40,722 nt of DNA from Kutzneria sp. 744 (lineage in GTDB: Bacteria > Actinomycetota > Actinomycetes > Mycobacteriales > Pseudonocardiaceae), in the NCBI RefSeq assembly GCF_000568255.1, contig NZ_KK037166.1, positions 6,321,360 through 6,362,081 of the forward strand. The letters run 5' to 3'. This document shows positions 15,617 through 26,864 of this stretch, piece by piece; positions within the stretch are counted from its first letter, which is position 1; every line of letters starts with the position of its first letter. A program made the translations under genes and the position numbers. The notes below the pieces were generated by a model. The model worked only from the letters and a program-made list of their open reading frames with translations, was not told the DNA's origin and made no database searches.

Positions 15617-18600
15617 TCAGGCGGCGTCATCTTCGGCGAAGGTTTCGGCTTGCCGCAGCACCAGCTCCACAGCGCGGGCTTCTGCATCCGGGGGATATCC
15701 ATGCCGAGCTAGCAACCGCTTGATCTTGCTACGCAACCGCGCCTGTACCTGCTCACGTACCGACCAGTCCACCGCCCTGTCGGCCCGGACCGCACTTACC
15801 AGATCCCGTGCGATCTCGGCAAGGGCGCCGGTGGTCATCTCCCGCACGGCGGACTCGTTGCTTGCGACCGCGTCGTAGAACGCCAACTCATCCTCGGTTA
15901 GACCGAGATCCTTAGCCCGGCCCCGGTCCGCGGACACCTCCTTGGCTAGATCCACAAGTGCCGCGATGATCTCGGCCGAGGCCAGGGCGCCATTGGTGTA
16001 ACGACGCATGGTCTCCAGCAATTTGTCAGAGAACGTGCGTTGCCGGATTAGATTGTGCGGGTGCACCGCACGGATCTCCCGCTCGATGGCGCGTCGTAGC
16101 GCCTCCAACGCCAGCTGCGGGCGCTTGCTCTCGCGCAGCCGGGCCACGAACGCCTCATCGAGGTGTGACAGGTCTGGCTTCTCCAGCCCGGCGGCTGCGT
16201 AGATATCCACCACCTCGTCCACCGCGACGGCCCCGGCGGTGAGCTGGCGGACCAGGAACTCGACCTCGGCCCGGCCGGAGATGCCCCGCTCGGCGCGTTC
16301 CTCGGCATCCCACTTGGCGAGGTAGATCCGAACCGTCTCGAAGAACGCTATGTCGTCGACGAGGTCCGCCAGCTCGCGTGCTTTGGGGCGCAATGCGAAC
16401 GCGCGCAGCAGGTCATGTGCGGTCTTGGTGAACCGCTGCTGGGCGGTCGGCTGGTTCTCCGGCCGGTCGGGTTCGGGCCGCTTGAGGTAGTTCGCCACGT
16501 CCACGGCCGCATCATGGAAAGCCTTCGGCCGTCCGGAATCCCGCACCCTGCGCCAGTCGATGCCGGCCAGTTGTGCGACCAGCACGCCGTGCAGTTCGCG
16601 TACAAGATCCAGAATTTCGTTCGTATCCCGGCCGATCGGCTTGTGGTCGCGGTCGGCCACCGTGTACTCGGCCAGCGCGCGGGTCAGGTCATCCGCGATA
16701 CCGAGGTAGTCCACCACCAGACCGGACGGCTTCTCGCCGAACCGGCGGTTCACCCTGGCCAGCGCCTGCATCAGCGATGCGCCGCGCATCGGCTTGTCCA
16801 GATAGAGCGTGTGCAGCGGCGGGGCATCGAATCCGGTCAGCCACAACGACTGGACGATCACCAGTTCCAGGTCATTTTTGGCATCGGTGACCCGCTTCTT
16901 GATCGCCTTGAGTTTGGCCGGGGTTCGGACGTGCGTGCCAACCGGCGGCTTCTCGCCAGGTGTGCCCGTGTAGGCGACTTTGATGATCCCCTTGCCGTCG
17001 TCTGCCGACGCCCATTTCGGTCGGAGTTTGATGATCTCGTCATAGAGCAGCGCGCAGATCCGCCGGGTGTAGCCGACGATCATCCCCTTGCCAGCAACTC
17101 CGGTCAGCTTGATCATCTGCTCCCGGCGGGCCTCCCAGTGCTCCACGATGTCCTCGGCCAGTTTCCGCAGCCGCTCCGGGGCACCGACCACGTCCTCGTA
17201 GATCCTGGTTCCCCTGGCGATCTCACGGGCCTCGTCGGAGTCCAGGTCGGCGGTTAGGTCCTCGACCCGTTCGTCGAGATCGGTGACCTTAACGCCTTCG
17301 GGCAGGTGCACCGGGATGTGCCGGTTCTCGTAGAACACCGGCACGGTCGCGCCATCGTCCACCGCACGGGTCAGGTCGTAGATATCGATATAGTCACCGA
17401 ATACGCCTCGAGTGTTCGCCTCGGCGCGGGTGATCGGGGTGCCGGTGAACGCGATGAAACTCGCGTGGGGCAGAGCGTCGTGCAGGGCGCGGGCCAGGCC
17501 ATCGATGAAGTCGTAGTGACTGCGGTGCGCCTCGTCCACCACCACGATCAGGTTGCGGCGCGACGAAAGCACCGGATGCCTACGGCCGGCTTCCTTTTCG
17601 ACTTTGGTGAGGCTGAACTTCTGTAGTGTGGAGAAGATGATGCCGCCGCTGGGCCGATCGAGCTCGGTGTGCAACTCGGCGCGAGTGAGGGCCTGCTTGG
17701 GCCGCTCCGGCAGGAGAGTGCTTGCCGAGAACGTCTCATACAGCTGGCTGTCCAGGTCGATCCGGTCGGTGAGCATCAGCACCGTGGGGTTCGCCAATGC
17801 TGGATGCCGGGCCACCTTCGCGGCATAGAACTCCATCTCCTTGCTCTTGCCCGAGCCCTGGGTATGCCAGACGACACCGGCCCGGCCGTCGGTCGCCACG
17901 GCCTGCACGGTCGCCGCGACCGCCTGGTTGACCGCGTGGAACTGGTGCGCCTTGGCCAGCCGCACAATGTCCACCGCACCGCCGTTGTCCGCGGAGAACG
18001 AGACGAAGTTGGCGATCAGGTCGAGAAAGCGTTCCGGTGCGAACATCCCGTTGATCAGGACCTCAAGTGCGTTGCCCGCGCGGACGTCTACTCGCTTGCC
18101 CTGCTCGTCGACGTTCCACGGCGCCATGTGCTCCCATGGACTGAACGGCGTGCCGGCGCGTGCGGTGATGCCGTCGGAGACGATCGCGACGATCGGCACG
18201 GCGAACCCGGTGACTCCGAACTCGCGGCGGTAGGTCTGTAGTTGCCGATAGGCCGTCTCGCTGTTGTCCTCGGTGTCCGCCCTTTTCAGCTCGAACACGG
18301 CCAAGGGCAGGCCGTTGACGTAGCAGACGATGTCGAATCGGCGAGTGTGCTTGCGATCAGCGAGTCGGACCTGGTTGACGGCCAGGAATTCGTTGGCGTA
18401 CGGGTCGTTGAAGTCGATCGCCCACACCGTGGGATGGCGTTCGGTGCCGGCCTCATCGGTGTACGAGATGCGGATGCCACGGGTGAGCAGGCCGTGCATC
18501 CGATGGTTCTCGTGCAGGGCGTCCTGTGAGCGGCGGTCGAGCAGTTCGGCGAGCGCGGCATCCAGCGCCGATGCCGGAAGGTCCGGATTGATCCTGCGTA

Positions 18601-18757
18601 GAGCGGCCCGCAACCGCCTGGTGAGGACCAGCTCGTCCCAGCCGGGACGTTCCCCCGTGCGCGGGGCGACAGCGGAGCCCTCCAGGTGCTGCCAGGACCA
18701 CTCAGCCAACCCGTCCAGCGCGTGCGCTTCCCAGTCGGCTTCCGACATGCCCGCCAT
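15617..18757 (-). CDS. hsdR: Type I restriction enzyme, motor and nuclease subunit
   Basis: A 1046-residue protein of normal HsdR length. The nuclease domain has Asp142 in RRFDIVCY and Glu156-Leu-Lys158 in FELKRAD, the PD-ExK core. The helicase part has Walker A at about 299-305 (TQGSGKS), DEAH at 408-411 (VVDEAHRSHYD) and TGTP at 438-441, followed by the usual SF2 second lobe (VQSLWLTGFDAPPLHTLYLDK) and a C-terminal helical region. It cuts DNA after ATP-driven translocation when the HsdM-HsdS complex meets unmethylated sites. All key residues are present. It is the last gene of the minus-strand operon, 12 bases after hsdS. Confidence 0.95.
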   Translation of the reverse strand: MAGMSEADWEAHALDGLAEWSWQHLEGSAVAPRTGERPGWDELVLTRRLRAALRRINPDLPASALDAALAELLDRRSQDALHENHRMHGLLTRGIRISYTDEAGTERHPTVWAIDFNDPYANEFLAVNQVRLADRKHTRRFDIVCYVNGLPLAVFELKRADTEDNSETAYRQLQTYRREFGVTGFAVPIVAIVSDGITARAGTPFSPWEHMAPWNVDEQGKRVDVRAGNALEVLINGMFAPERFLDLIANFVSFSADNGGAVDIVRLAKAHQFHAVNQAVAATVQAVATDGRAGVVWHTQGSGKSKEMEFYAAKVARHPALANPTVLMLTDRIDLDSQLYETFSASTLLPERPKQALTRAELHTELDRPSGGIIFSTLQKFSLTKVEKEAGRRHPVLSSRRNLIVVVDEAHRSHYDFIDGLARALHDALPHASFIAFTGTPITRAEANTRGVFGDYIDIYDLTRAVDDGATVPVFYENRHIPVHLPEGVKVTDLDERVEDLTADLDSDEAREIARGTRIYEDVVGAPERLRKLAEDIVEHWEARREQMIKLTGVAGKGMIVGYTRRICALLYDEIIKLRPKWASADDGKGIIKVAYTGTPGEKPPVGTHVRTPAKLKAIKKRVTDAKNDLELVIVQSLWLTGFDAPPLHTLYLDKPMRGASLMQALARVNRRFGEKPSGLVVDYLGIADDLTRALAEYTVADRDHKPIGRDTNEILDLVRELHGVLVAQLAGIDWRRVRDSGRPKAFHDAAVDVANYLKRPEPDRPENQPTAQQRFTKTAHDLLRAFALRPKARELADLVDDIAFFETVRIYLAKWDAEERAERGISGRAEVEFLVRQLTAGAVAVDEVVDIYAAAGLEKPDLSHLDEAFVARLRESKRPQLALEALRRAIEREIRAVHPHNLIRQRTFSDKLLETMRRYTNGALASAEIIAALVDLAKEVSADRGRAKDLGLTEDELAFYDAVASNESAVREMTTGALAEIARDLVSAVRADRAVDWSVREQVQARLRSKIKRLLARHGYPPDAEARAVELVLRQAETFAEDDAA

Positions 18758-18769
18758 CGCCGCCCCCTC

Positions 18770-19942
18770 TCAGACCACCTCGGTTACTTGTCGCTCCGCA
18801 TCCTTGATTCGCAACTCGCCCGACATCAACTTCGGCAGCAGCATGTCCCGAAGTTCGACCAACGCGCGGCTCTCGTCGCCCTTCTTGTCGACAAGCTCAA
18901 GCATTGTTCGGGCCAAGGGAGTAAAATTATGGATAGCTTCTGTGTTGGGAATAGCAACTTCGCAGCGCAAGGCAATGTCCCGACTCAATCCTGGTATTGC
19001 CGAGTCTCCGACCAATCGTCTCAGATTGGCTCCCTTGAGTAGGAAGTAGATGAACTCTATGGGAAGGCCTGTCCGTGTTCGAATGAAGAATGATGTATCG
19101 ATCGGCCAGAAGTCGCACTGAGACCATGAGATCGAACCGGCGTTCGCCCCCTTTCTGCCGATGATTACGCCAGGGCCGTTCACTAGTGGCTTATCATGCC
19201 ACCCGGATATTCCGTTTCCTCCAAAAACCGGCACCGTGCCAATGGTTCGATTCTCCTCTTTGAGGGCCTTTCCGTAGCAAAACTCAACTATTTCGCCAAG
19301 CTGGATGGTCCGTTGCGTATTGGCTATCAAGCGGGAAAAATAAGTATCAAGCAACTGATTTGTGGTCGCGGCGATCCGGTCGTTGACCGCGATCTTGTCA
19401 TCCAGTGCTCCAAGGATGGTGGCCGTAGCACGCTGTTCGTAGATCGAAGGAATTGGTACGCGCAGCGCTTTTATAGTGGCCAGTGGACTGGCGATACCTG
19501 GCACGCCTACCGTCGAGGCGTTCGCGAGCAGTGCTTGTTGCCCCTTGGGGGAAGTGAACCAATAGTAGTAGAACTCGGGCAGTGCAACCTGCGTGTTAAG
19601 GCGGGCTTTTACTTGGCTCGATGAAAGTATATATCGTTCAAATTTCGAATTTCGCGGTATCATCGAAACCTGTCCGATTGTTCCTCGATGTGTAAATACG
19701 AGATCCCCGGGCAGGAGGATGCATGACGAAAGCTCGTCGGCCTTTTGATTGCTAACGTAAACGAACTGTTCGTCAAGGAAGGTTCCGCGCGAAAGATTAA
19801 CACCTCGTACAACTGGCACGCCAGTCTTGGTGTAGTTGTCCTTAGTGATTCTCGAACCGAAGGGACCAATCGAGAAGCTTGCTGGGTCGAGCGAGGCTAG
19901 TGACTGAAATTCCATCACAGGCCAAGCTGGCAACTCAGACAT
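18770..19942 (-). CDS. hsdS: Type I restriction specificity subunit
   Basis: A 390-residue HsdS. The start at 19942 (MSELPAWP) follows GGGGAGG and overlaps the hsdM stop by 8 bases; the frame is open upstream but this start fits the family. There are two target-recognition domains of about 190 residues each, separated by ILGALDDKIAVNDRIAATTN, the conserved helical spacer. A second helix, ARTMLELVDKKGDESRALVE, lies near the C-terminus. Each domain shows the usual VVRGVNL/GDLVFTHRGTIG and VIIGRKGANAGS-type patterns. GC is clearly lower than in hsdM and hsdR, as is common for recombining specificity genes. The recognised sequence cannot be read from it. Confidence 0.93.
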   Translation of the reverse strand: MSELPAWPVMEFQSLASLDPASFSIGPFGSRITKDNYTKTGVPVVRGVNLSRGTFLDEQFVYVSNQKADELSSCILLPGDLVFTHRGTIGQVSMIPRNSKFERYILSSSQVKARLNTQVALPEFYYYWFTSPKGQQALLANASTVGVPGIASPLATIKALRVPIPSIYEQRATATILGALDDKIAVNDRIAATTNQLLDTYFSRLIANTQRTIQLGEIVEFCYGKALKEENRTIGTVPVFGGNGISGWHDKPLVNGPGVIIGRKGANAGSISWSQCDFWPIDTSFFIRTRTGLPIEFIYFLLKGANLRRLVGDSAIPGLSRDIALRCEVAIPNTEAIHNFTPLARTMLELVDKKGDESRALVELRDMLLPKLMSGELRIKDAERQVTEVV

Positions 19943-21542
19943 CGAGCCTCCCCAGCTGAGTGCGGACTTCCTGCTCAAGGCAGGTCGACTCGGCGAACTG
20001 GGCGTAAAGCTGCTCGGTGAGTCGGGCGATCTTGTCGCCAATCGGTTCGTCGTCTTCCGCTACAGCCGCACTGCCGACATAGCGGCCGGGGGTGAGCACG
20101 AAGTCGTTCTGCTTGATCTCGTCCAGATTGGCTGAGTAGCAGAAGCCGGGCTCGTCAGCGTACTCGGCGTCGCGGTCGGTGCCGCGCCAGCGGTGGTAGG
20201 TTCCAGCCACCCTCTCGATGTCGGCAGCCGACAGTTCGCGCTCGGTCCGGTTGACCAACTCACCGAGGCCACGCGCGTCGATGAACAGGACCTCGCCGCG
20301 TCGGTCGGCCAGCCGCTTGGCCCCCTGTGGGGTCTTGTCTCTGGTCAGGAACCACAGGCACGCGGGGATCTGGGTGGACCGGAACAACTGCGGCGGTAGC
20401 GCCACCATGCAGGCCACCAGATCACGCTCCACCATCGTCCGACGGATGTCGCCCTCGCCGGACTGCTTCGACGACATTGACCCATTCGCCAGCACGATCC
20501 CGGCACGCCCCTTGGGGCGCAGCTTGAACGCCATGTGCTGCAACCACGCGAAGTTCGCGTTTCCCTTCGGTGGCACGCCGTAGGTCCAGCGCTGGTCGGC
20601 GGTAAGCCGGTCGCCGCCCCAATCGGAGATGTTGAACGGCGGATTGGCCAGGACCACATCAGCACGTAGGTCCGGGTGCTGGTCGTCGTGGAAGGTGTCA
20701 CCCCACCGGTCGCTCAGGTCGGCGCTGATGCCGTGGATGGCCAGGTTCATCTTGGCCAGCCGCCAGGTGTTCTCGTTCAACTCCTGGCCGTACACCGCGA
20801 TGTCGATGGTTCGCCCGCCGTGACTCTCCACGAACCGCTCGGCCTGCACGAACATGCCGCCGGAGCCACAGCAAGGGTCGTACACGCGCTCGCCCTTGGC
20901 CGGTTCCAGCGTCTCGACGAGCAGCTTCACCACACTCGACGGGGTGAAGTATTCACCGCCCCGCCGGCCCTCGGCGAGGGCGAACTTGCCGAGGAAGTAC
21001 TCGTACACCTCGCCGAGCACATCGCGGGCCTTCTTGGTCCCACCGTCAAGGTCCAATTGTCCGTGGAAGCCGATCCGACCGATCAGGTCGACGAGTTCGC
21101 CCAGCCTGCGCAGGTCGACGTTGCTGCGGTTGAACAGCTTCGGCAGCACGCCGCGCAGTTCGGGGTTCTCCTTCTCCACCGCGTCCATCGCGGTGTCGAT
21201 CAGCTCGCCTACAGACTTGCCACCCGAAGCGGCCTTCGCGCCCTCGGCGATGGCCTCCCAGCGGGCCACCTGCGGAACCCAGAACACCCCATGACCGAGG
21301 TACTCGTCGCGGTCCTCGATCAGCCGGGCCGCCCGCTCGCCGGTAATACCGTCAGCAGCCAGCTCCTCGGTTATCTGCTCGCGCCGTTCGTCGAAGGAGT
21401 CCGAGACGTACTTCAGGAACACCAGGCCGAGCACGAAATGCTTGTAGTCGGCGGCATCCATGCTGCCACGCAGCTTGTCCGCTGCCTTCCACAGGATCTC
21501 CTTCATGTCCGCCGATGTGGTTGGGGCGGATCGTTTAGCCAC
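19935..21542 (-). CDS. hsdM: Type I restriction modification subunit
   Basis: A 535-residue N6-adenine methyltransferase. The N-terminal helical domain (MKEILWKAADKLRGSMDAAD) leads into the catalytic core, with DPCCGSGG at 222-229 as the AdoMet motif and NPPF at 300-303 as the catalytic motif. The C-terminal part is that of an M subunit that binds HsdS. It methylates both strands of the type I site and forms the M2S core to which HsdR binds. It is 10 bases downstream of the fused methylase gene and overlaps hsdS. Confidence 0.95.
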   Translation of the reverse strand: MAKRSAPTTSADMKEILWKAADKLRGSMDAADYKHFVLGLVFLKYVSDSFDERREQITEELAADGITGERAARLIEDRDEYLGHGVFWVPQVARWEAIAEGAKAASGGKSVGELIDTAMDAVEKENPELRGVLPKLFNRSNVDLRRLGELVDLIGRIGFHGQLDLDGGTKKARDVLGEVYEYFLGKFALAEGRRGGEYFTPSSVVKLLVETLEPAKGERVYDPCCGSGGMFVQAERFVESHGGRTIDIAVYGQELNENTWRLAKMNLAIHGISADLSDRWGDTFHDDQHPDLRADVVLANPPFNISDWGGDRLTADQRWTYGVPPKGNANFAWLQHMAFKLRPKGRAGIVLANGSMSSKQSGEGDIRRTMVERDLVACMVALPPQLFRSTQIPACLWFLTRDKTPQGAKRLADRRGEVLFIDARGLGELVNRTERELSAADIERVAGTYHRWRGTDRDAEYADEPGFCYSANLDEIKQNDFVLTPGRYVGSAAVAEDDEPIGDKIARLTEQLYAQFAESTCLEQEVRTQLGRLDV

Positions 21543-21552
21543 CTAGTGCTCC

Positions 21553-23583
21553 TCAGTCCTGCTCGTCCTCGAATTCGCCGACCCTCGTGCGCGGCACGTC
21601 CGGCACTGTCGCGACTGCCAGCACACCATCGGCGATACCCGCCGACAACGCACCGTCCAGTCGTGCCAGTGCGTTCATCTTGACGGCCAGCTCCGACCGG
21701 CGCCGCTCCAGGTCGACGAAGTAGTCATCCAGGGCGAGGACCTCCGCCTCAGTCAGGACGGGTAGCTCCAGCACTCCCAGGTCGACCCGACGAACCAGTG
21801 ATCCGCTTTCCCTGCCGGCGTTGCGCGGGGAGGTCAGCAGCTTGGCGAGCAGCGTCGGTCGCATCGGTGGCGAAGGACGGTCGGGACGTTCTGGTCGTAG
21901 GCGTACAACCTGAGCGGGGGCCAGCACGAGCTGGCCGCCAGTTCGGTCAACGGTGGCCGACAGCCCTCCCTCGGCGAGCACGATGACGTCGCCTGGTTCG
22001 GTTAGTTGCGCGGACTCGTACTTGGCGAGCGCGAGATTGTCGATCCATCGGCTACGCACGGCCAGTCCACCGCGTAGCTCCTCCAGGCCGATCACCGCTG
22101 TGCCGCCGGTACCGAGATCGACGTCGGCGATGTCTTCCCGCGAGATGCGATGACCGCCACGAACCGTCGCGATCGCCGCGAGCGGCACGAGTAGTGCCTG
22201 CTCACGCGCCTGGGCGACGCCAGGCCAGCGCGCCGTCACCTGATCGGGGAACTGGTCCCGGACAAGTTGGACGGAAGCGATTGCACTTGCGACATGGTCG
22301 ACTGACGTTCTTTCTGTCGTCAGGCGGTGCGCGGGGAGCAAGCTGCCGCCGGGCATCGTGAGCCGCATTCTGCGACATACCTCCGGGCGTTCCACGGTGC
22401 GCGCGCGAACCAATCTGGCAGCCGTCGCGGGCCACCCTTCGTCGGCCTCAGCTATCCGATCGGCGTTGCACAACACGACGTCCTCGCTTGCTTCGCCAAG
22501 CGGAGTGAGTTCGAGCACGGCCAATTCAGTGCCGGTGAGGAACGGATGTGCTCGGCGGGGCAGTTGGATCACCGAAGCCAGGATCTTGGCGTCGAGCAGC
22601 CGTTGGCGGGCAGCGGGCTTGCGGGTCAGTGTCCAGGTCGGCACGACAACGTAAGCGCGGCCACCCGGGGCGAGATGCCGCGCCGAGAGCATCACCCAGT
22701 CCAACGGGCCGAAATCCCGCTCCGTCGCCTTCCGGTCGGTGAACTCGCCGGATATGTACGGGGGGTCGAGCACCACCAGATCGACCTGCCTCTCCGGCCA
22801 GCCGGTGGTGCTATCGCTCTGGTTGATTTCCGCGTCGACGCCGTGTGCGAGCAGGCGGTGTCGCAGGATCCGGCACCACGTCGAATGCGACTCCACCGTT
22901 GTCACTTGATCGGCAGTGCGGCCGTCAAGCACTCGCAACAGCAGGCTGCCCACGCCGGCTGCGGGATCACAGACGGTGCGGCCGGTGACATCGCCGACGA
23001 GTGCGGCGATCAGGTCGGCGATGGGCTTTGGAGTCATCGTCGACCGCAGAGCCGAGTCCACCCGGTCGGCCGAGAAAATGAACTCGTCGATCGCCGCTTC
23101 CGGCCCGACCGAGCACGTCAGCTCGTCGACTGTCCTGGCGATGTGGCCGACGAACGCCGAGGGTGTCATCAGGTCGCGGGTGAACAATCCGGCCAGTTCT
23201 GGACGCTCCCGTTCGACCCGCCCGGCGAGCGTGGCGATTGCCTCAGGGGTAGCTGGCAGTGGCGTACCCGCGTGTGCCCGAAGCGACACCAACGCGACCG
23301 AGAGTCGGAGGACGTCATCGCCGCCAATCGCTCCACCGAACCGGACGATGGCGCGCATGCGGAGGCTGTCACGGAAGACCTGGCCATAGGTACGGTCGTC
23401 GTCAATGGGCCGGCGATCCAACCAGAGGGCGATCTCCTCGGCATCGAACAGCGGCGTGGATCCGTTGTCCTTGGCCGGTTTGGGGAAGTCATCGTGCCGC
23501 CTGCGCCAGTTGCTCACGGTTGGACGACGGACCCGTGCCAGCTCGGCGATGTCCGTCATCGTCACCACGGTTCGGTCCGTCAC
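21553..23583 (-). CDS. N6-adenine methylase fused to an HsdS-like region
   Basis: A 676-residue protein. The GTG at 23583 is preferred because AGGAGG at 23592-23597 is 8 bases away; ATG 23589 and GTG 23592 lie too close to it. It begins with a short MerR-like helix-turn-helix (IAELARVRRPTVSNWRRR). The methylase core has DPAAGVGS near 206 and DPPY near 273. The C-terminal 200 residues carry GDVIVLAEGGLSATVDRTG and a closing helix (LDDYFVDLERRRSELAVKM), as in an HsdS-type target-recognition half. It therefore looks like a self-contained M.S methylase, without a nuclease, beside a complete second methylase. Relatives occur with abi and type I genes in actinomycetes, but the job of this subunit is not established. 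Confidence 0.75.
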   Translation of the reverse strand: MTDRTVVTMTDIAELARVRRPTVSNWRRRHDDFPKPAKDNGSTPLFDAEEIALWLDRRPIDDDRTYGQVFRDSLRMRAIVRFGGAIGGDDVLRLSVALVSLRAHAGTPLPATPEAIATLAGRVERERPELAGLFTRDLMTPSAFVGHIARTVDELTCSVGPEAAIDEFIFSADRVDSALRSTMTPKPIADLIAALVGDVTGRTVCDPAAGVGSLLLRVLDGRTADQVTTVESHSTWCRILRHRLLAHGVDAEINQSDSTTGWPERQVDLVVLDPPYISGEFTDRKATERDFGPLDWVMLSARHLAPGGRAYVVVPTWTLTRKPAARQRLLDAKILASVIQLPRRAHPFLTGTELAVLELTPLGEASEDVVLCNADRIAEADEGWPATAARLVRARTVERPEVCRRMRLTMPGGSLLPAHRLTTERTSVDHVASAIASVQLVRDQFPDQVTARWPGVAQAREQALLVPLAAIATVRGGHRISREDIADVDLGTGGTAVIGLEELRGGLAVRSRWIDNLALAKYESAQLTEPGDVIVLAEGGLSATVDRTGGQLVLAPAQVVRLRPERPDRPSPPMRPTLLAKLLTSPRNAGRESGSLVRRVDLGVLELPVLTEAEVLALDDYFVDLERRRSELAVKMNALARLDGALSAGIADGVLAVATVPDVPRTRVGEFEDEQD

Positions 23584-23613
23584 GGTCATCACCTCCTAGC
23601 TACGTCGACCAGG

Positions 23614-24282
23614 TCAGAACTGGGGATCGGCGTCGCCATCGCATACGGCGCGGCGGCGCCGCAACACTTGCTCCACCCGATCATGCCGCCGTACAAACTC
23701 CACGGCCGGCGGCGAGATGCGCCCGATCAAGTCCAGGATCGTCCCGTGGTCGGCCTTGAGGTGGCGCCGGTGGATCGGCTCGGCGTGCGCTATCCGGTTG
23801 CGCAAATACCTCATCGAGTCCAGTTGCTTATGCAGGGGGAGACGTCCGCCCGAGTAGTTCGGGAACGCGTGCCGCAACGCCGGACGCCACAGCGTAGTCT
23901 CGTAGTTGCGGCCTTTGCCGAGCAACGCGACCCAGAACCCGAAGTGCAGCTCGGCGACCATCGCGTCAGGCACGGCCGGTTTGCCGCGCTTCGCCAAGTT
24001 CGCGGCAGCCTCTGCGAGTAGCCCCTTAGCGACGTCATGCAAATCGACCCGACGATCACGCCACCAGTCGGATCGCCCAACCAACGTGACGAGCTGCTCG
24101 TGCAACGCGTTCCGCAGTGCAACTTCAAGGCAGCCCAGCGGGCCGCTGAGCGCGGCCGACACCTCGAGGTTCCATGCGTACAGCCGAAAAGCTTTGGCGA
24201 CGTCCCCGTTGCAATGCTTGAGGTACGGCTCCATCCGCGCTGCTGAGAACGCTGCCAGGAGGTCCTCGAACTCCCCGTCCAT
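23614..24282 (-). CDS. Abi_2/AbiF-like abortive-infection protein
   Basis: A 222-residue protein. EVALRNALHEQL (Arg57-Asn58...His61) and YLRNRIAHAEP (Arg161-Asn162...His166) carry the RN-x-x-x-H signature. The overall order (helices, LHFGFWVALLGKG, LWRPALRHAFPN) matches the Abi_2 family, which belongs to the HEPN-like RNase group. Such proteins are thought to stop phage growth by RNA cleavage. It is the first protein gene of the operon. A structured RNA lies just upstream on the same strand, and its start is 31 bases upstream of the methylase GTG. In related loci an RNA of this kind is found next to the gene. The biochemical activity is inferred. Confidence 0.75.
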   Translation of the reverse strand: MDGEFEDLLAAFSAARMEPYLKHCNGDVAKAFRLYAWNLEVSAALSGPLGCLEVALRNALHEQLVTLVGRSDWWRDRRVDLHDVAKGLLAEAAANLAKRGKPAVPDAMVAELHFGFWVALLGKGRNYETTLWRPALRHAFPNYSGGRLPLHKQLDSMRYLRNRIAHAEPIHRRHLKADHGTILDLIGRISPPAVEFVRRHDRVEQVLRRRRAVCDGDADPQF

Positions 24283-24315
24283 GTAGACCCCCAGCTTCCA
24301 GACGCGATGGTGTAC

Positions 24316-24420
24316 AGTGGCTGCGTAAGCCCCGGTGTCAGCCTCTGCTCAGCATGCTGCCCGGGGCGCCGCTTTTTGGTGCGGCTCAGCGTCAGGGGAC
24401 GAGTCCCGACCTACGCCACT
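24316..24420 (-). ncRNA. Candidate structured RNA upstream of abi
   Basis: On the minus strand these 105 bases can fold into a four-helix junction. The closing helix pairs 24316-24321 with 24415-24420 (AGTGGC/GCCACT) and, past a 3-base bulge, 24325-24327 with 24412-24414. Helix A pairs 24329-24335 with 24361-24367 (GCCCCGG/CCGGGGC), with CAGC/GCTG inside it. Helix B pairs 24368-24372 with 24381-24385 around an 8-base loop that is A-rich in the RNA. Helix C pairs 24396-24399 with 24404-24407, plus GTC/GAC outside. It ends 33 bases before the abi start and begins about 7 bases past a probable transcription start. Rfam-type abiF RNAs sit in front of Abi_2 genes; identity was not tested. Confidence 0.55.
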
Positions 24421-24433
24421 TTGCTCTGTCGCC

Positions 24434-24462
24434 AGAGTATCTGCCGGGGCATCACCCGTCAA
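24434..24462 (-). promoter_or_regulatory. Promoter of the RNA-abi-type I operon
   Basis: On the minus strand TTGACG (24457-24462) and TACTCT (24434-24439) are separated by exactly 17 bases, a good match to the vegetative promoter pattern. Transcription would start near 24427, just outside the closing helix of the candidate RNA. The same transcript could then continue through abi and the four methylase and restriction genes. Confidence 0.6.
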
Positions 24463-24899
24463 GGTATGCTGATAAGGGCACTTCTCAGCAACCGGCTGCA
24501 TAGAGGTATGACGACGTGGTTGGCTGCGGGCGAGGCCGGCTGGAATGTCTAGCCGTAGACTGGGGCCCTGGAGGCTTGGCTCTCACTGTGTTGGCTCGAC
24601 TGTCACACGGTTATCTACAGGGGTGTCGCGACGCTCGGTTCATGCAGTTGTCCTACTTGTGCGCACGCGATGCCGGCGCATCAACGGCGTCCGTCACTGA
24701 CCGTAGTCTTGGTGAGTGTGTCGGGAGGGGCGTAAGTAGACCCGTTTCCGCTGTTCAGTGCGATGATGGTCAAGTTTCTGACTCTTGCGGCGCAAGACGC
24801 GCGGTGGCCCGTCAGCGGAGTGATGGCGGGTCGTGATTTTGCGCCCGGACGGCCTGGTGGAGTGGCCCAATCAGTGTTTCCGCTGGTCAGGCCCCTGTG
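24463..24899. other. Non-coding stretch upstream of the operon promoter
   Basis: No credible gene. A 15-base near-repeat, GTTTCCGCTG(T/G)TCAG, occurs at 24744-24758 and 24876-24890. Frames on both strands are short and lack ribosome sites. The right part probably continues the decayed methylase remnant described next, which fades beyond recognition here. Confidence 0.4.
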
Positions 24900-24912
24900 G
24901 CGGCTCCCGGGA

Positions 24913-25101
24913 TCAGGTGTTCAGGTTGCCCCTTGTCCCGCGCGACGGGTTCGTCCTAGATGGACGACTTGAACGGTTCAGACTCGCCCGCTTTGAGTGT
25001 AGCCGTCCGGGCGCGTAGCACTCGACGAAGTCGTCCAGATTCTGACGACGAAGAGGGTTCTGCTTGAGGGTGAAGTGTTGGTTGGTGCGCAGGTCTAGAC
25101 C
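24913..25101 (-). pseudogene. Remnant of a type I methylase (HsdM-like) C-terminus
   Basis: On the minus strand the reading LDLRTNQHFTLKQNPLRR, continuing NLDDFVECYAPGR, is the C-terminal signature of N6-adenine methylases of type I systems. Shortly after, in another frame and past a stop codon, come SEPFKS and then DEPVARDKGQPEHL, matching the usual ...FKSFTYDELVARDKANLDI ending. The stop and frameshift show decay. At its upstream end it is cut by the insertion sequence at 25102. It is not part of the intact hsdM further left, so an older type I system once stood here. Confidence 0.6.
25092..25101. repeat. Left copy of the 10-base direct repeat flanking the IS
   Basis: GGTCTAGACC occurs here and again at 26606-26615, on the two outer edges of the insertion sequence. 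Being a perfect palindrome, it is also an inverted repeat, so it could belong to the element's ends instead of being a target duplication. A 10-base duplication is within the range known for IS4-type elements. Confidence 0.6.
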
Positions 25102-25153
25102 CAAGGCCGTGAAGTTAAGGGTTGGGCGCGGATGTCCAGCCCGCTGAAAAGGG

Positions 25154-25213
25154 CAACGGAGTTCCTGCTAGAACGGTGTCGACCAAGATCACCAGACAGC
25201 AGAAACTCCGTTG
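25154..25213. repeat. Long inverted repeat over the transposase start
   Basis: CAACGGAGTTCCTGCT at 25154-25169 and AGCAGAAACTCCGTTG at 25198-25213 pair at 15 of 16 positions around a 28-base loop. The right arm contains the TTG start codon. A transcript entering from outside could fold and hide the start, a known way for insertion sequences to limit transposase made from neighbouring promoters. Confidence 0.65.
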
Positions 25214-26572
25214 GACACCCAGTCTTCCATCACCCGCGCGATCACCGTGGCCGGGGGCCGATACGCGCCCGGCCACCTCGGTGAACTCACCCAACACCTC
25301 CCGTTCGAGATGATCGACGAGGCCCTGACCGCCACCCGCACCACCCAACACCGCCTGCGGGACCTGCCCTCCCGGGTGGTGGTCTACCTGCTCCTGGCCG
25401 CCTGCCTGTTCCCCGAGGTCGGATACTCCGGTGTTTGGCGCAAGCTGACCGCCGCCCTGGACGGCCTGCCCACCGCCACCCCCACCGCCAGCGGACTGGC
25501 CACCGCCCGCCAGAGGGTCGGTGCCGCACCCCTGCGGTGGCTGTTCGACCTGCTCCGTGGCCCCGCCACCACCGGCCGAGCTCCCGGAACCCGCTGGCGC
25601 GGACTGCTGGTCTGCGCGATCGACGGCACCACCCTGACCGTGCCCGACAACCCCCGCATGCTCACCCGGTTCACCAAGCAGCGGGGCAACCACGGCGGCG
25701 CCGGCTACCCCCAGATCCGGCTGGTCGCGTTGCTCGCGTGTGGCACCCGCAGCGTGATCGACGCGGTGTTCGGCCCGACCACCATCGGCGAGACCACCTA
25801 CACACCACAGCTGCTGCGCAGCCTGCACGCCGGCATGATCCTGTTGGGCGACCGCAACTTCGGCGCCGCCGGCCTGCTCGCCCAGATCGCCACCACCGGC
25901 GCCGATCTGCTGGTACGCCTGAAAAACGGCCGCACGATGCCGATCCTGACCCGCTACCGAGACGGCTCCTACCTCTCAATCCTGGGCGGCCTGCGAGTGC
26001 GCGTCATCGAGTGCGAGATCACCATCGCCACCACCGCCGGCCGGCACACCGGGATCTACCGGCTGACCACCACCCTGCTCGACCCCCACGACTACCCGGC
26101 GGCCGAGTTGATCCGGCTCTACCACCAGCGATGGGAGATCGAAACCGCTTACCTGGAGCTGAAATCCACCATCCTGGGTGGCCGGGTGCTCCGCGCCCGC
26201 ACCCCGGTCGGCATCGAGCAGGAGATCTACGCCCTGCTCGTCACCTACCACCTGCTCCGCACCGCCATGGCCGACGCGACCAGCACCCGACCGGATACCG
26301 ATCCGGACCGGGCCAGCTTCACCATCGCCTATCAGACCTCCCGCGACCAGGTGATCCAGGCCGCGAACGTCATCGCCGGCACCGTCATCGACCTGGTCGG
26401 CACGATCGGCCGGCACGTCCTGGCCCACCTCATGCCGGTCCGACGGCTCCGGGTCTGCCCCCGCATCGTCAAACGCGCCATCTCCAAACACCAGGCCAGA
26501 GGACCCAATATCGACCGGACCAGCTATAAGGCCACCCTGAGCATCGACATCCTGACACCGGCAGACGCTTGA
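25211..26572 (+). CDS. IS4-family transposase (DDE)
   Basis: A 453-residue transposase. The catalytic triad is visible: Asp138 in CAIDGTTLTVPD, Asp214 in LLGDRNFGAAG and Glu311. The last lies in the IS4 signature Y-x2-R-x3-E-x6-K (Tyr304, Arg307, Glu311, Lys318 in YHQRWEIETAYLELK). An N-terminal DUF4372-like region precedes the core. The frame begins at a TTG just after a TAG stop 40 bases upstream, and no ATG or GTG lies between, so TTG is the only usual start; no clear ribosome site precedes it. No frameshift or stop interrupts it, so the element may still move. Confidence 0.93.
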   Translation: MDTQSSITRAITVAGGRYAPGHLGELTQHLPFEMIDEALTATRTTQHRLRDLPSRVVVYLLLAACLFPEVGYSGVWRKLTAALDGLPTATPTASGLATARQRVGAAPLRWLFDLLRGPATTGRAPGTRWRGLLVCAIDGTTLTVPDNPRMLTRFTKQRGNHGGAGYPQIRLVALLACGTRSVIDAVFGPTTIGETTYTPQLLRSLHAGMILLGDRNFGAAGLLAQIATTGADLLVRLKNGRTMPILTRYRDGSYLSILGGLRVRVIECEITIATTAGRHTGIYRLTTTLLDPHDYPAAELIRLYHQRWEIETAYLELKSTILGGRVLRARTPVGIEQEIYALLVTYHLLRTAMADATSTRPDTDPDRASFTIAYQTSRDQVIQAANVIAGTVIDLVGTIGRHVLAHLMPVRRLRVCPRIVKRAISKHQARGPNIDRTSYKATLSIDILTPADA

Positions 26573-26791: not shown

Positions 26792-26864
26792 TGGGCCGCC
26801 TGGGGCTCGAACCCAGAACCTACGGATTAAAAGTCCGCAGCTCTACCAATTGAGCTAACGGCCC
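26792..26864 (-). tRNA. tRNA-Lys (anticodon TTT)
   Basis: A 73-base cloverleaf on the minus strand. The acceptor arm is GGGCCGT/GCGGCCC with one G-T pair. The D arm is GCTC-AATTGGTA-GAGC, the anticodon stem GCGGA/TCCGT with loop CTTTTAA (anticodon at 26829-26831), and the T arm CTGGG-TTCGAGC-CCCAG. No CCA is encoded. Its 3' end faces the defence island, the usual orientation when an element has integrated into a tRNA gene, but I found no second copy of the 3' end in this window. Confidence 0.97.

Follow-up and report, generated by a model that had tools for sequence, protein, structure and literature searches.

A conserved hairpin RNA encoded divergently from an abi gene in Kutzneria sp. 744: likely partner of a probable HEPN ribonuclease toxin

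Background

Which strand encodes the structured RNA found in front of the abi gene of Kutzneria sp. 744, and what might this RNA do for the protein encoded beside it? The stretch of DNA analysed here (the window; 40,722 nucleotides (nt), positions 6,321,360 to 6,362,081 of contig NZ_KK037166.1, with all coordinates counted from the first letter of the window) carries abi on the minus strand, and a preliminary description had placed a promoter-driven, four-helix RNA on that same strand, leading the abi transcript. The evidence is instead for a one-hairpin RNA transcribed divergently from abi, from its own predicted -10 element TACAGT. The locus likely constitutes a two-part toxin-antitoxin-like defence unit, made up of a HEPN ribonuclease toxin and a divergent plus-strand RNA partner. 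The computed basis for this reading is twofold: the RNA is conserved in its location and strand, its promoter element, its fold and its U-rich tail, and the protein has a predicted fold and an invariant HEPN motif.

Structure of the RNA

The abi gene and the parts of the RNA are as follows.

23614-24282, minus strand: abi gene, encoding a 222-amino acid HEPN protein, the probable toxin (Pfam, PADLOC, structure model)
24313-24318, plus strand: -10 element TACAGT, 6 nt before the core, with predicted start G24325 (TANNNT at a conserved spacing)
24325-24367, plus strand: conserved RNA core, 43 nt (model R1, 62.8 bits; model R2, 56.4 bits; covariation; unconstrained fold)
From 24325, plus strand: GUAA leader at the start of the core
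24329-24335 with 24361-24367, plus strand: stem P1
24339-24342 with 24356-24359, plus strand: stem P2
24346-24348 with 24352-24354, plus strand: stem P3
Between P2 and P3, plus strand: CUC(U) internal loop
24368-24379, plus strand: probable 3' tail, with a U tract (TTTTT) at 24373-24377 and a provisional 3' end (TTT enrichment on the plus strand)

The window sequence is a training row of both R1 and R2, and its scores should be read accordingly. The centroid of the unconstrained plus-strand fold of 24325-24379 reproduces the P1/P2/P3 structure, with a z-score (-1.9) that is not striking for a single sequence. The hairpin is common to close and distant homologues of abi, and in the window it corresponds to the third hairpin of the four-helix model. 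On the antisense strand of relatives, a TANNNT element is followed after 6-7 nt by G(U/A)A, a GC-rich stem, an inner sequence that is typically GCCUCUG ... GCAYGC, the closing stem and a pyrimidine-rich tail.

Distribution and orientation

Of 397 genomes of the order, 78 encode a homologue of the 222-amino acid abi protein at an E-value of 1e-10, the genome of the window included. The first set of loci consists of 70 of the 100 abi places listed (the window, L001, plus 69), the other 30 being weaker or partial. A hairpin finder placed the conserved hairpin in 48 of the 70; the remaining 22 were dropped by eye before the first alignments. Model R1 was built from 14 close sequences, and model R2 from alignment A5 (31 rows), which collects R1 matches in 37 of 74 sources. 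These sources were picked for having a match on the expected strand, and E-values up to 0.035 were accepted.

Besides the window, R2 matches 42 of 67 first-set loci at an E-value of 0.001 or better (excluded are L001, which is identical to the window, and two duplicates, L034 and L068). With filters off, seven more loci have a match opposite abi at 0.024 or better (L026, L028, L029, L035, L042, L054, L064), giving 49 of 67. Detection in this set is not independent, because the loci are the pool from which the model was trained. Orientation is a different matter: it is not built into R2, because the model can match either strand. All 42 matches lie opposite abi, 27-81 nt from its estimated start.

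A second, named set comprises the best 80 of 562 confirmed loci from a protein-alignment scan of named genomes. It overlaps the first set at some loci (L138 is the place of L010, and L116 that of L031). In this set R2 has 67 matches in 66 of the 80 loci at an E-value of 0.01 or better, again all opposite abi, and 66 of them lie 30-99 nt before the estimated abi start. The extra match is 1293 nt away in L155, a Frankia locus in which two copies of the RNA (130-175 and 1356-1417) share a strand and are separated by about 1.2 kb. In the window, and at all 109 R2 matches of the two sets (42 and 67), the RNA is encoded opposite abi. Matches occur in Streptomyces, Amycolatopsis, Frankia, Alphaproteobacteria (such as Rhodothalassium and Parvularcula), Sedimenticola, a Methylomonas metagenome-assembled genome and the cyanobacterium Nodosilinea. 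The same hairpin can also give a weak R2 match when read from its other strand (for example in L009, E-value: 0.0082); alignment A6 removes such matches by E-value. A phylum-wide R2 scan gave matches in 2 of 296 genomes, the window's included; 22 candidates were scored in the genomes listed, so this count says little about absence.

Strand of transcription

Three features point to the plus strand. All 38 distinct first-set matches have TANNNT ahead of the core at a spacing of 6-7 nt (5-9 nt allowed; 1.8 expected from shuffles), and in the named set the element precedes the core in 54 of 65 distinct matches (3.8 expected). At the matching place on the abi strand, it occurs in 1 of 38 and 0 of 65, respectively. 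The 11 named-set loci that lack the element are mostly proteobacterial and have hexamers such as CATATT; a TTGACA-like -35 element precedes the RNA in several Alphaproteobacteria, as judged by eye. TTT within 15 nt after the core is likewise a property of the RNA strand, both in the first set (30/38 versus 2/38 on the other strand) and in the named set (50/65 versus 1/65).

The third feature is the type of wobble pair. First-set wobble cells are 14 G-U versus 2 A-C when read from the plus strand, with neither kind in P1. Over all pairs the named set is less clear (36 G-U versus 22 A-C), and its seven P1 pairs contain 24 G-U and no A-C cells; the A-C cells all fall in the pairs that P1 encloses, nine of them in the pair adjoining it. 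The RNA is assigned to the plus strand on account of the promoter, the U-rich tail and the wobble pairs, and the minus-strand placement of the preliminary description falls with this assignment.

These results bear on a rival reading, in which a minus-strand four-helix leader of the abi mRNA acts by attenuation in cis or yields an antitoxin in the manner of RCd22, the RNA of the Clostridium difficile AbiF system. The minus-strand fold is good (see below), a promoter-like pair lies upstream, abiF RNAs are on the gene strand in three loci (L071-L073), and some abi relatives seem to carry a same-strand RNA. Against this stand the near absence of TANNNT from the matching place on the abi strand, the U-rich tail and P1 wobble pairs that favour the other strand, and a closing helix that is not conserved. 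A leader of this kind is very unlikely.

Conservation of the fold

In alignment A6 (38 distinct rows), 94.3% of cells pair, and two-sided changes are seen in 9 pairs and 51 cells (5.4 and 13.4 in shuffles), a signal that is destroyed when the partner is slid. Alignment A8 (65 rows) has 92.7% of cells paired and two-sided changes in 9 pairs and 54 cells. Both sets of counts lean towards the model structure, because the alignments were fitted to it, and the cells come from related sequences and are not independent events. One inner pair is weakly backed, with 16 of 31 and 34 of 48 cells unpaired.

Could the dyad be a DNA operator or a terminator, with no functional RNA at all? An inverted repeat followed by a U-rich tail does resemble a terminator, and DNA dyads covary too. 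Neither function calls for a -10 element at so fixed a spacing (38/38 and 54/65), for G-U cells with no A-C cells in P1 of the named set, or for a conserved asymmetric internal loop, and this explanation is highly improbable.

The minus-strand model

Two further features are needed to follow what became of the four-helix model.

24434-24462, minus strand: TTGACG-17-TACTCT, at most a candidate promoter of the abi mRNA; a transcript from it would cross the RNA gene in antisense
24368-24416, no strand assigned: 49 nt with two further hairpins of the earlier model, between the core and the tail-like sequence; not seen in close relatives (by eye)

The 105-nt minus-strand segment (24420-24316) does fold well, as had been claimed (-52.7 kcal/mol, z-score: -3.3), with a weaker plus-strand fold of the same segment (-50.8 kcal/mol, z-score: -2.0). 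Of its four helices, only the third hairpin is conserved among relatives. The closing helix was said to have nine pairs; in the window, the two stretches can form at most six contiguous Watson-Crick pairs. At least six pairs are possible in 7 of 102 distinct relatives (10.6 expected by shuffling), including 2 of the 13 closest, and seven pairs in 3 of 102 (1.95 expected). Such a helix would join the RNA's own promoter to sequence beyond the RNA. The two other internal hairpins fall inside the 49 nt that close relatives lack: the tail-like sequence CACTTTGCTCTGTC directly follows the core in relatives, and in the window these 49 nt intervene (both by eye). Compensatory changes, for which the preliminary description proposed a test in all four helices, are found in the one conserved hairpin.

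The two hexamers and 17-nt spacer of the TTGACG-17-TACTCT site are present (24462-24434) and match the consensus at 8 of 12 positions, but their role as a promoter is not upheld. A sigma-70 scan of 23500-25200 reported no site, and when the 221 nt that lie upstream of the RNA are shuffled by mononucleotide, 9.6% of the shuffles contain a site as good (p = 0.096). When both locus sets are pooled (110 R2 matches, window and duplicates kept), abi-strand promoter-like pairs beyond the RNA occur at 20 of 110 with a score of at least 8 (10.5 expected) and at 7 of 110 with a score of at least 9 (2.2 expected), at varying distances.

The abi protein

The Pfam Abi_2 match of the abi protein (20.2 bits) is below the cut-off of 25.6, and Abi_2 is matched at an E-value of 0.001 or better by 18 of 36 aligned abi proteins. 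The PADLOC profile PD-T4-5 matches residues 7-181 (E-value: 7.1e-10), and it matches all 36 aligned homologues at 0.001 or better. The putative catalytic motif is located as follows.

23785-23802, minus strand: HEPN motif RNRIAH, residues 161-166

R161, N162, R163 and H166 are invariant in the 36 aligned sequences, and the motif has the RxxxxH form of HEPN proteins. The predicted structure (predicted local distance difference test score of the model: 94.6) has an AbiF-like fold, and the solved structure nearest to it is 8vz6, the PbAbiF-non-coding RNA complex (14% identity). A sequence-profile search of the Protein Data Bank (PDB) ranked 8vz6 under artificial repeat proteins, at an E-value of 0.77, and was not used. 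On the strength of the model and the motif, the abi protein is probably a HEPN ribonuclease toxin of the AbiD/F-PD-T4-5 group.

Exceptions and variant layouts

Searching from the RNA instead of the protein, R2 has 15 matches in 10 of 150 genomes of the order, and 13 of the 15 are accompanied, on the 5' side of the RNA, by an abi homologue encoded on the other strand. A promoter-plus-stem scan of 145 of the 149 relative loci (a split copy, two duplicates and one locus with no usable start excluded) called 97 opposite, 8 same-strand, 3 both and 37 none (7, 6, 0 and 132 in shuffles); it misses the RNA in many R2-positive loci.

A number of results weigh against the two-part unit. Foldseek returned no PDB match for the abi model at an E-value of 0.001 or better. 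The Rfam model of abiF RNA (RF03085) does not detect the RNA, with no match up to an E-value of 10 in 24200-24600, so that the comparison with Rfam proposed in the preliminary description came out negative; conversely, R2 misses the three loci with Rfam abiF matches (L071-L073), where these matches are on the strand of the Abi-like gene that follows. Ten of the 15 matches of the RNA search were already in the training pool or are the window itself. Of the other five, L077, L079 and L088 adjoin a broken abi, and L083 and L086 have no abi next to them. L088 is also a protein match of the order-wide abi search, and the -10 element of L077 is without its TA start. An antitoxin RNA could persist after its toxin gene is broken, as seen here, but three cases prove nothing. 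L083 and L086 may be orphan RNAs.

Also on this side of the balance, 14 of the 80 named loci have no R2 match. By eye, five of these have a divergent variant (L113, L118, L160, L167, L168) and two perhaps do (L154, L162); six look same-strand (L143, L146, L148, L161, L166, L169), and L156 is unclear. Since R2-negative loci include such cases, the divergent layout is dominant, not universal. The same-strand calls of the promoter-plus-stem scan are not above chance in number (8 versus 6 in shuffles), but five of the eight (L143, L148, L161, L166, L169) are probably real, as they share a consistent sequence. These loci, and L146 by eye, belong to other actinobacteria and have a same-strand hairpin with its own TANNNT and a different inner sequence, which suggests that the RNA gene may have changed orientation.

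Among plasmid relatives, R2 matches 2 of 12 (L176, L181), both opposite abi, and there is no R2 match at L173 and L174, the best PD-T4-5 matches among the 10 plasmid proteins scanned. In these two E. coli plasmids, the PD-T4-5-like genes start about 70 nt after a match to ColE1-type RNAI. Separately, four plasmids not detected by R2 (L172, L177, L179, L182) have, by eye, opposite-strand promoter-like and RNA-like sequence and a terminator hairpin beside distant PD-T4-5-like genes. The promoter-like sequence of L179 is TTGACA-17-TATATT, and L182, a Phocaeicola plasmid, has GCCTCT inside a possible stem on the antisense strand.

Proposed mechanism

The most likely function of the RNA is to keep the abi toxin switched off. 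The model for the two-part unit would run in this order. The RNA would be made divergently from its own plus-strand promoter, with a predicted start at about 24325. It would bind the toxin, probably a dimer, and block the active site, in the way that RCd22 is described to act on C. difficile AbiF. Loss or displacement of the RNA, which phage infection might bring about, would leave the toxin free to cut cellular RNA, and growth would stop. Read-through of an RNA terminator, described as the source of the toxin in the RCd22 system, could not produce it in the divergent layout. Should abi transcription begin on the far side of the RNA gene, the abi transcript and the RNA would overlap in antisense, adding a further layer of repression; the abi-strand promoter-like pairs beyond the RNA gene, if real, would make the abi leader antisense to the RNA.

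This overlap raises the alternative that the RNA works chiefly in antisense, against the leader of the abi mRNA, much as in type I systems, and not as a protein-binding antitoxin. In its favour are the divergent arrangement, with some 50 nt to the start of the toxin gene, and the mild enrichment of abi-strand promoter-like pairs (20/110 versus 10.5). Antisense action alone, however, needs neither a conserved fold nor a CUCU loop; two-sided pair changes across phyla point to a folded RNA, and the nearest solved relative of abi is an RNA-bound complex. We consider this alternative unlikely. A combination of the two actions is conceivable, more as a speculation than as an expectation: for PD-T4-5/AbiD-like toxins of Actinomycetota, Proteobacteria and at least one cyanobacterium, the divergent RNA would be both a protein-binding antitoxin and antisense to the toxin leader, forming a type I/III hybrid whose RNA gene switched strand in evolution.

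If the two-part unit is correct, many single-gene Abi annotations may represent half of a two-part system, with the RNA unseen on the opposite strand. The RNA model would annotate the missing partners and give PD-T4-5-like genes a testable partner.

Neighbouring genes

Downstream of abi, the window contains the following genes.

21553-23592, minus strand: DNA methyltransferase gene, next after abi, gap of about 20 nt
15617-21542, minus strand: type I restriction genes hsdM, hsdS and hsdR

Because these genes share a strand and are separated by short gaps, abi likely heads an operon with the methyltransferase gene and hsdM, hsdS and hsdR. The earlier proposal of an RNA-led transcript that carries a type I system thus holds for the gene order, abi being followed on its strand by the methyltransferase and type I genes, and fails for the RNA as their minus-strand leader. 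Its other part, that a structured RNA is part of the Abi unit, is supported by the conserved RNA beside abi. In 37 of 150 loci, the window among them, abi is followed on its own strand by a methyltransferase homologue, with a gap of 11-115 nt in 36 of the 37 by alignment and of 690 nt in L124. This repeated pairing suggests that abi and restriction genes form a recurrent island. On the upstream side, close to the abi unit, are an IS4-family transposase gene (25211-26572) and a tRNA gene (26792-26864), as at an insertion hot spot.

Comparison with known systems

At gathering level, the tRNA is the only Rfam match in the whole window. At permissive thresholds, Rfam leaves the RNA unnamed in 20 loci, in 18 mostly proteobacterial loci and in 12 plasmid stretches, where its matches are other elements such as RNAI. 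RF03085 (gathering cut-off of 37 bits) has matches in 3 of 61 genomes of the order and in 2 of 296 of the phylum, one of them over the cut-off; three weak matches in 8 chosen genomes at an E-value of 10 are at places that differ from those of the abi homologues. In genome G000 it has none up to 10, with 150 of 3493 candidates scored. The best permissive match near the RNA is DUF3800-III (RF02962; plus strand, 21.8 bits, E-value: 0.016), which is far under its cut-off of 43.8 and was rejected; a search for this family matched 0 of 41 phylum genomes and 0 of 14 controls and is uninformative.

Like abiF RNA (RF03085) and RCd22 of the RCd22-AbiFCd system, the RNA of the window is short and structured and lies a short distance upstream of a gene of the Abi_2/HEPN kind, although the abi protein itself scores below the Abi_2 cut-off. 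To the eye, its outer stem, short inner stem and GCCUCU ... AUGC core follow a layout like that of abiF RNA. Neither model detects the other RNA, so any common descent of the two would rest on this short core, compared by eye. RCd22 is described as sharing a transcript with abiF that terminates ahead of the gene, and as binding the AbiF toxin directly and so neutralising it, both in cis and in trans, for which its stems are required (PMC12373285). Unlike RCd22, the RNA of the window is divergent, has one hairpin and another stem sequence, and is negative for RF03085. With 8vz6 the comparison is at the protein level alone.

PD-T4-5, an E. coli abortive infection gene, is described as a toxin-antitoxin-like abortive defence that is distantly related to AbiF/D (PMC9519451); all 36 aligned abi homologues match its profile. 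The best-matching PD-T4-5 proteins of E. coli plasmids are longer than abi (304 amino acids), and a search next to their genes (L173, L174) found no member of the present RNA family.

A 2025 study in Cell on AbiF and Cas13 is reported to have provided at least two AbiF-related RNA models (PMC12804078), and the divergent RNA may already be among them. Among the literature matches listed, most of them judged on titles and abstract openings alone, no divergent abiF-like RNA appears in those parts. An origin of Cas13 from HEPN toxins with RNA partners has been proposed (PMC12737573, PMC12165695); the present locus would offer a second gene layout for studying how such toxins gave rise to Cas13.

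The abi locus would share with type III toxin-antitoxin systems such as ToxIN the principle of an RNA antitoxin paired with a ribonuclease toxin. The ToxN fold of the ToxIN toxin differs from the HEPN fold, and type III systems typically have a co-directional RNA before the toxin gene. Unlike ToxIN, the abi locus has a HEPN fold, no tandem repeats in the RNA core and an RNA gene that is divergent from the probable toxin gene.
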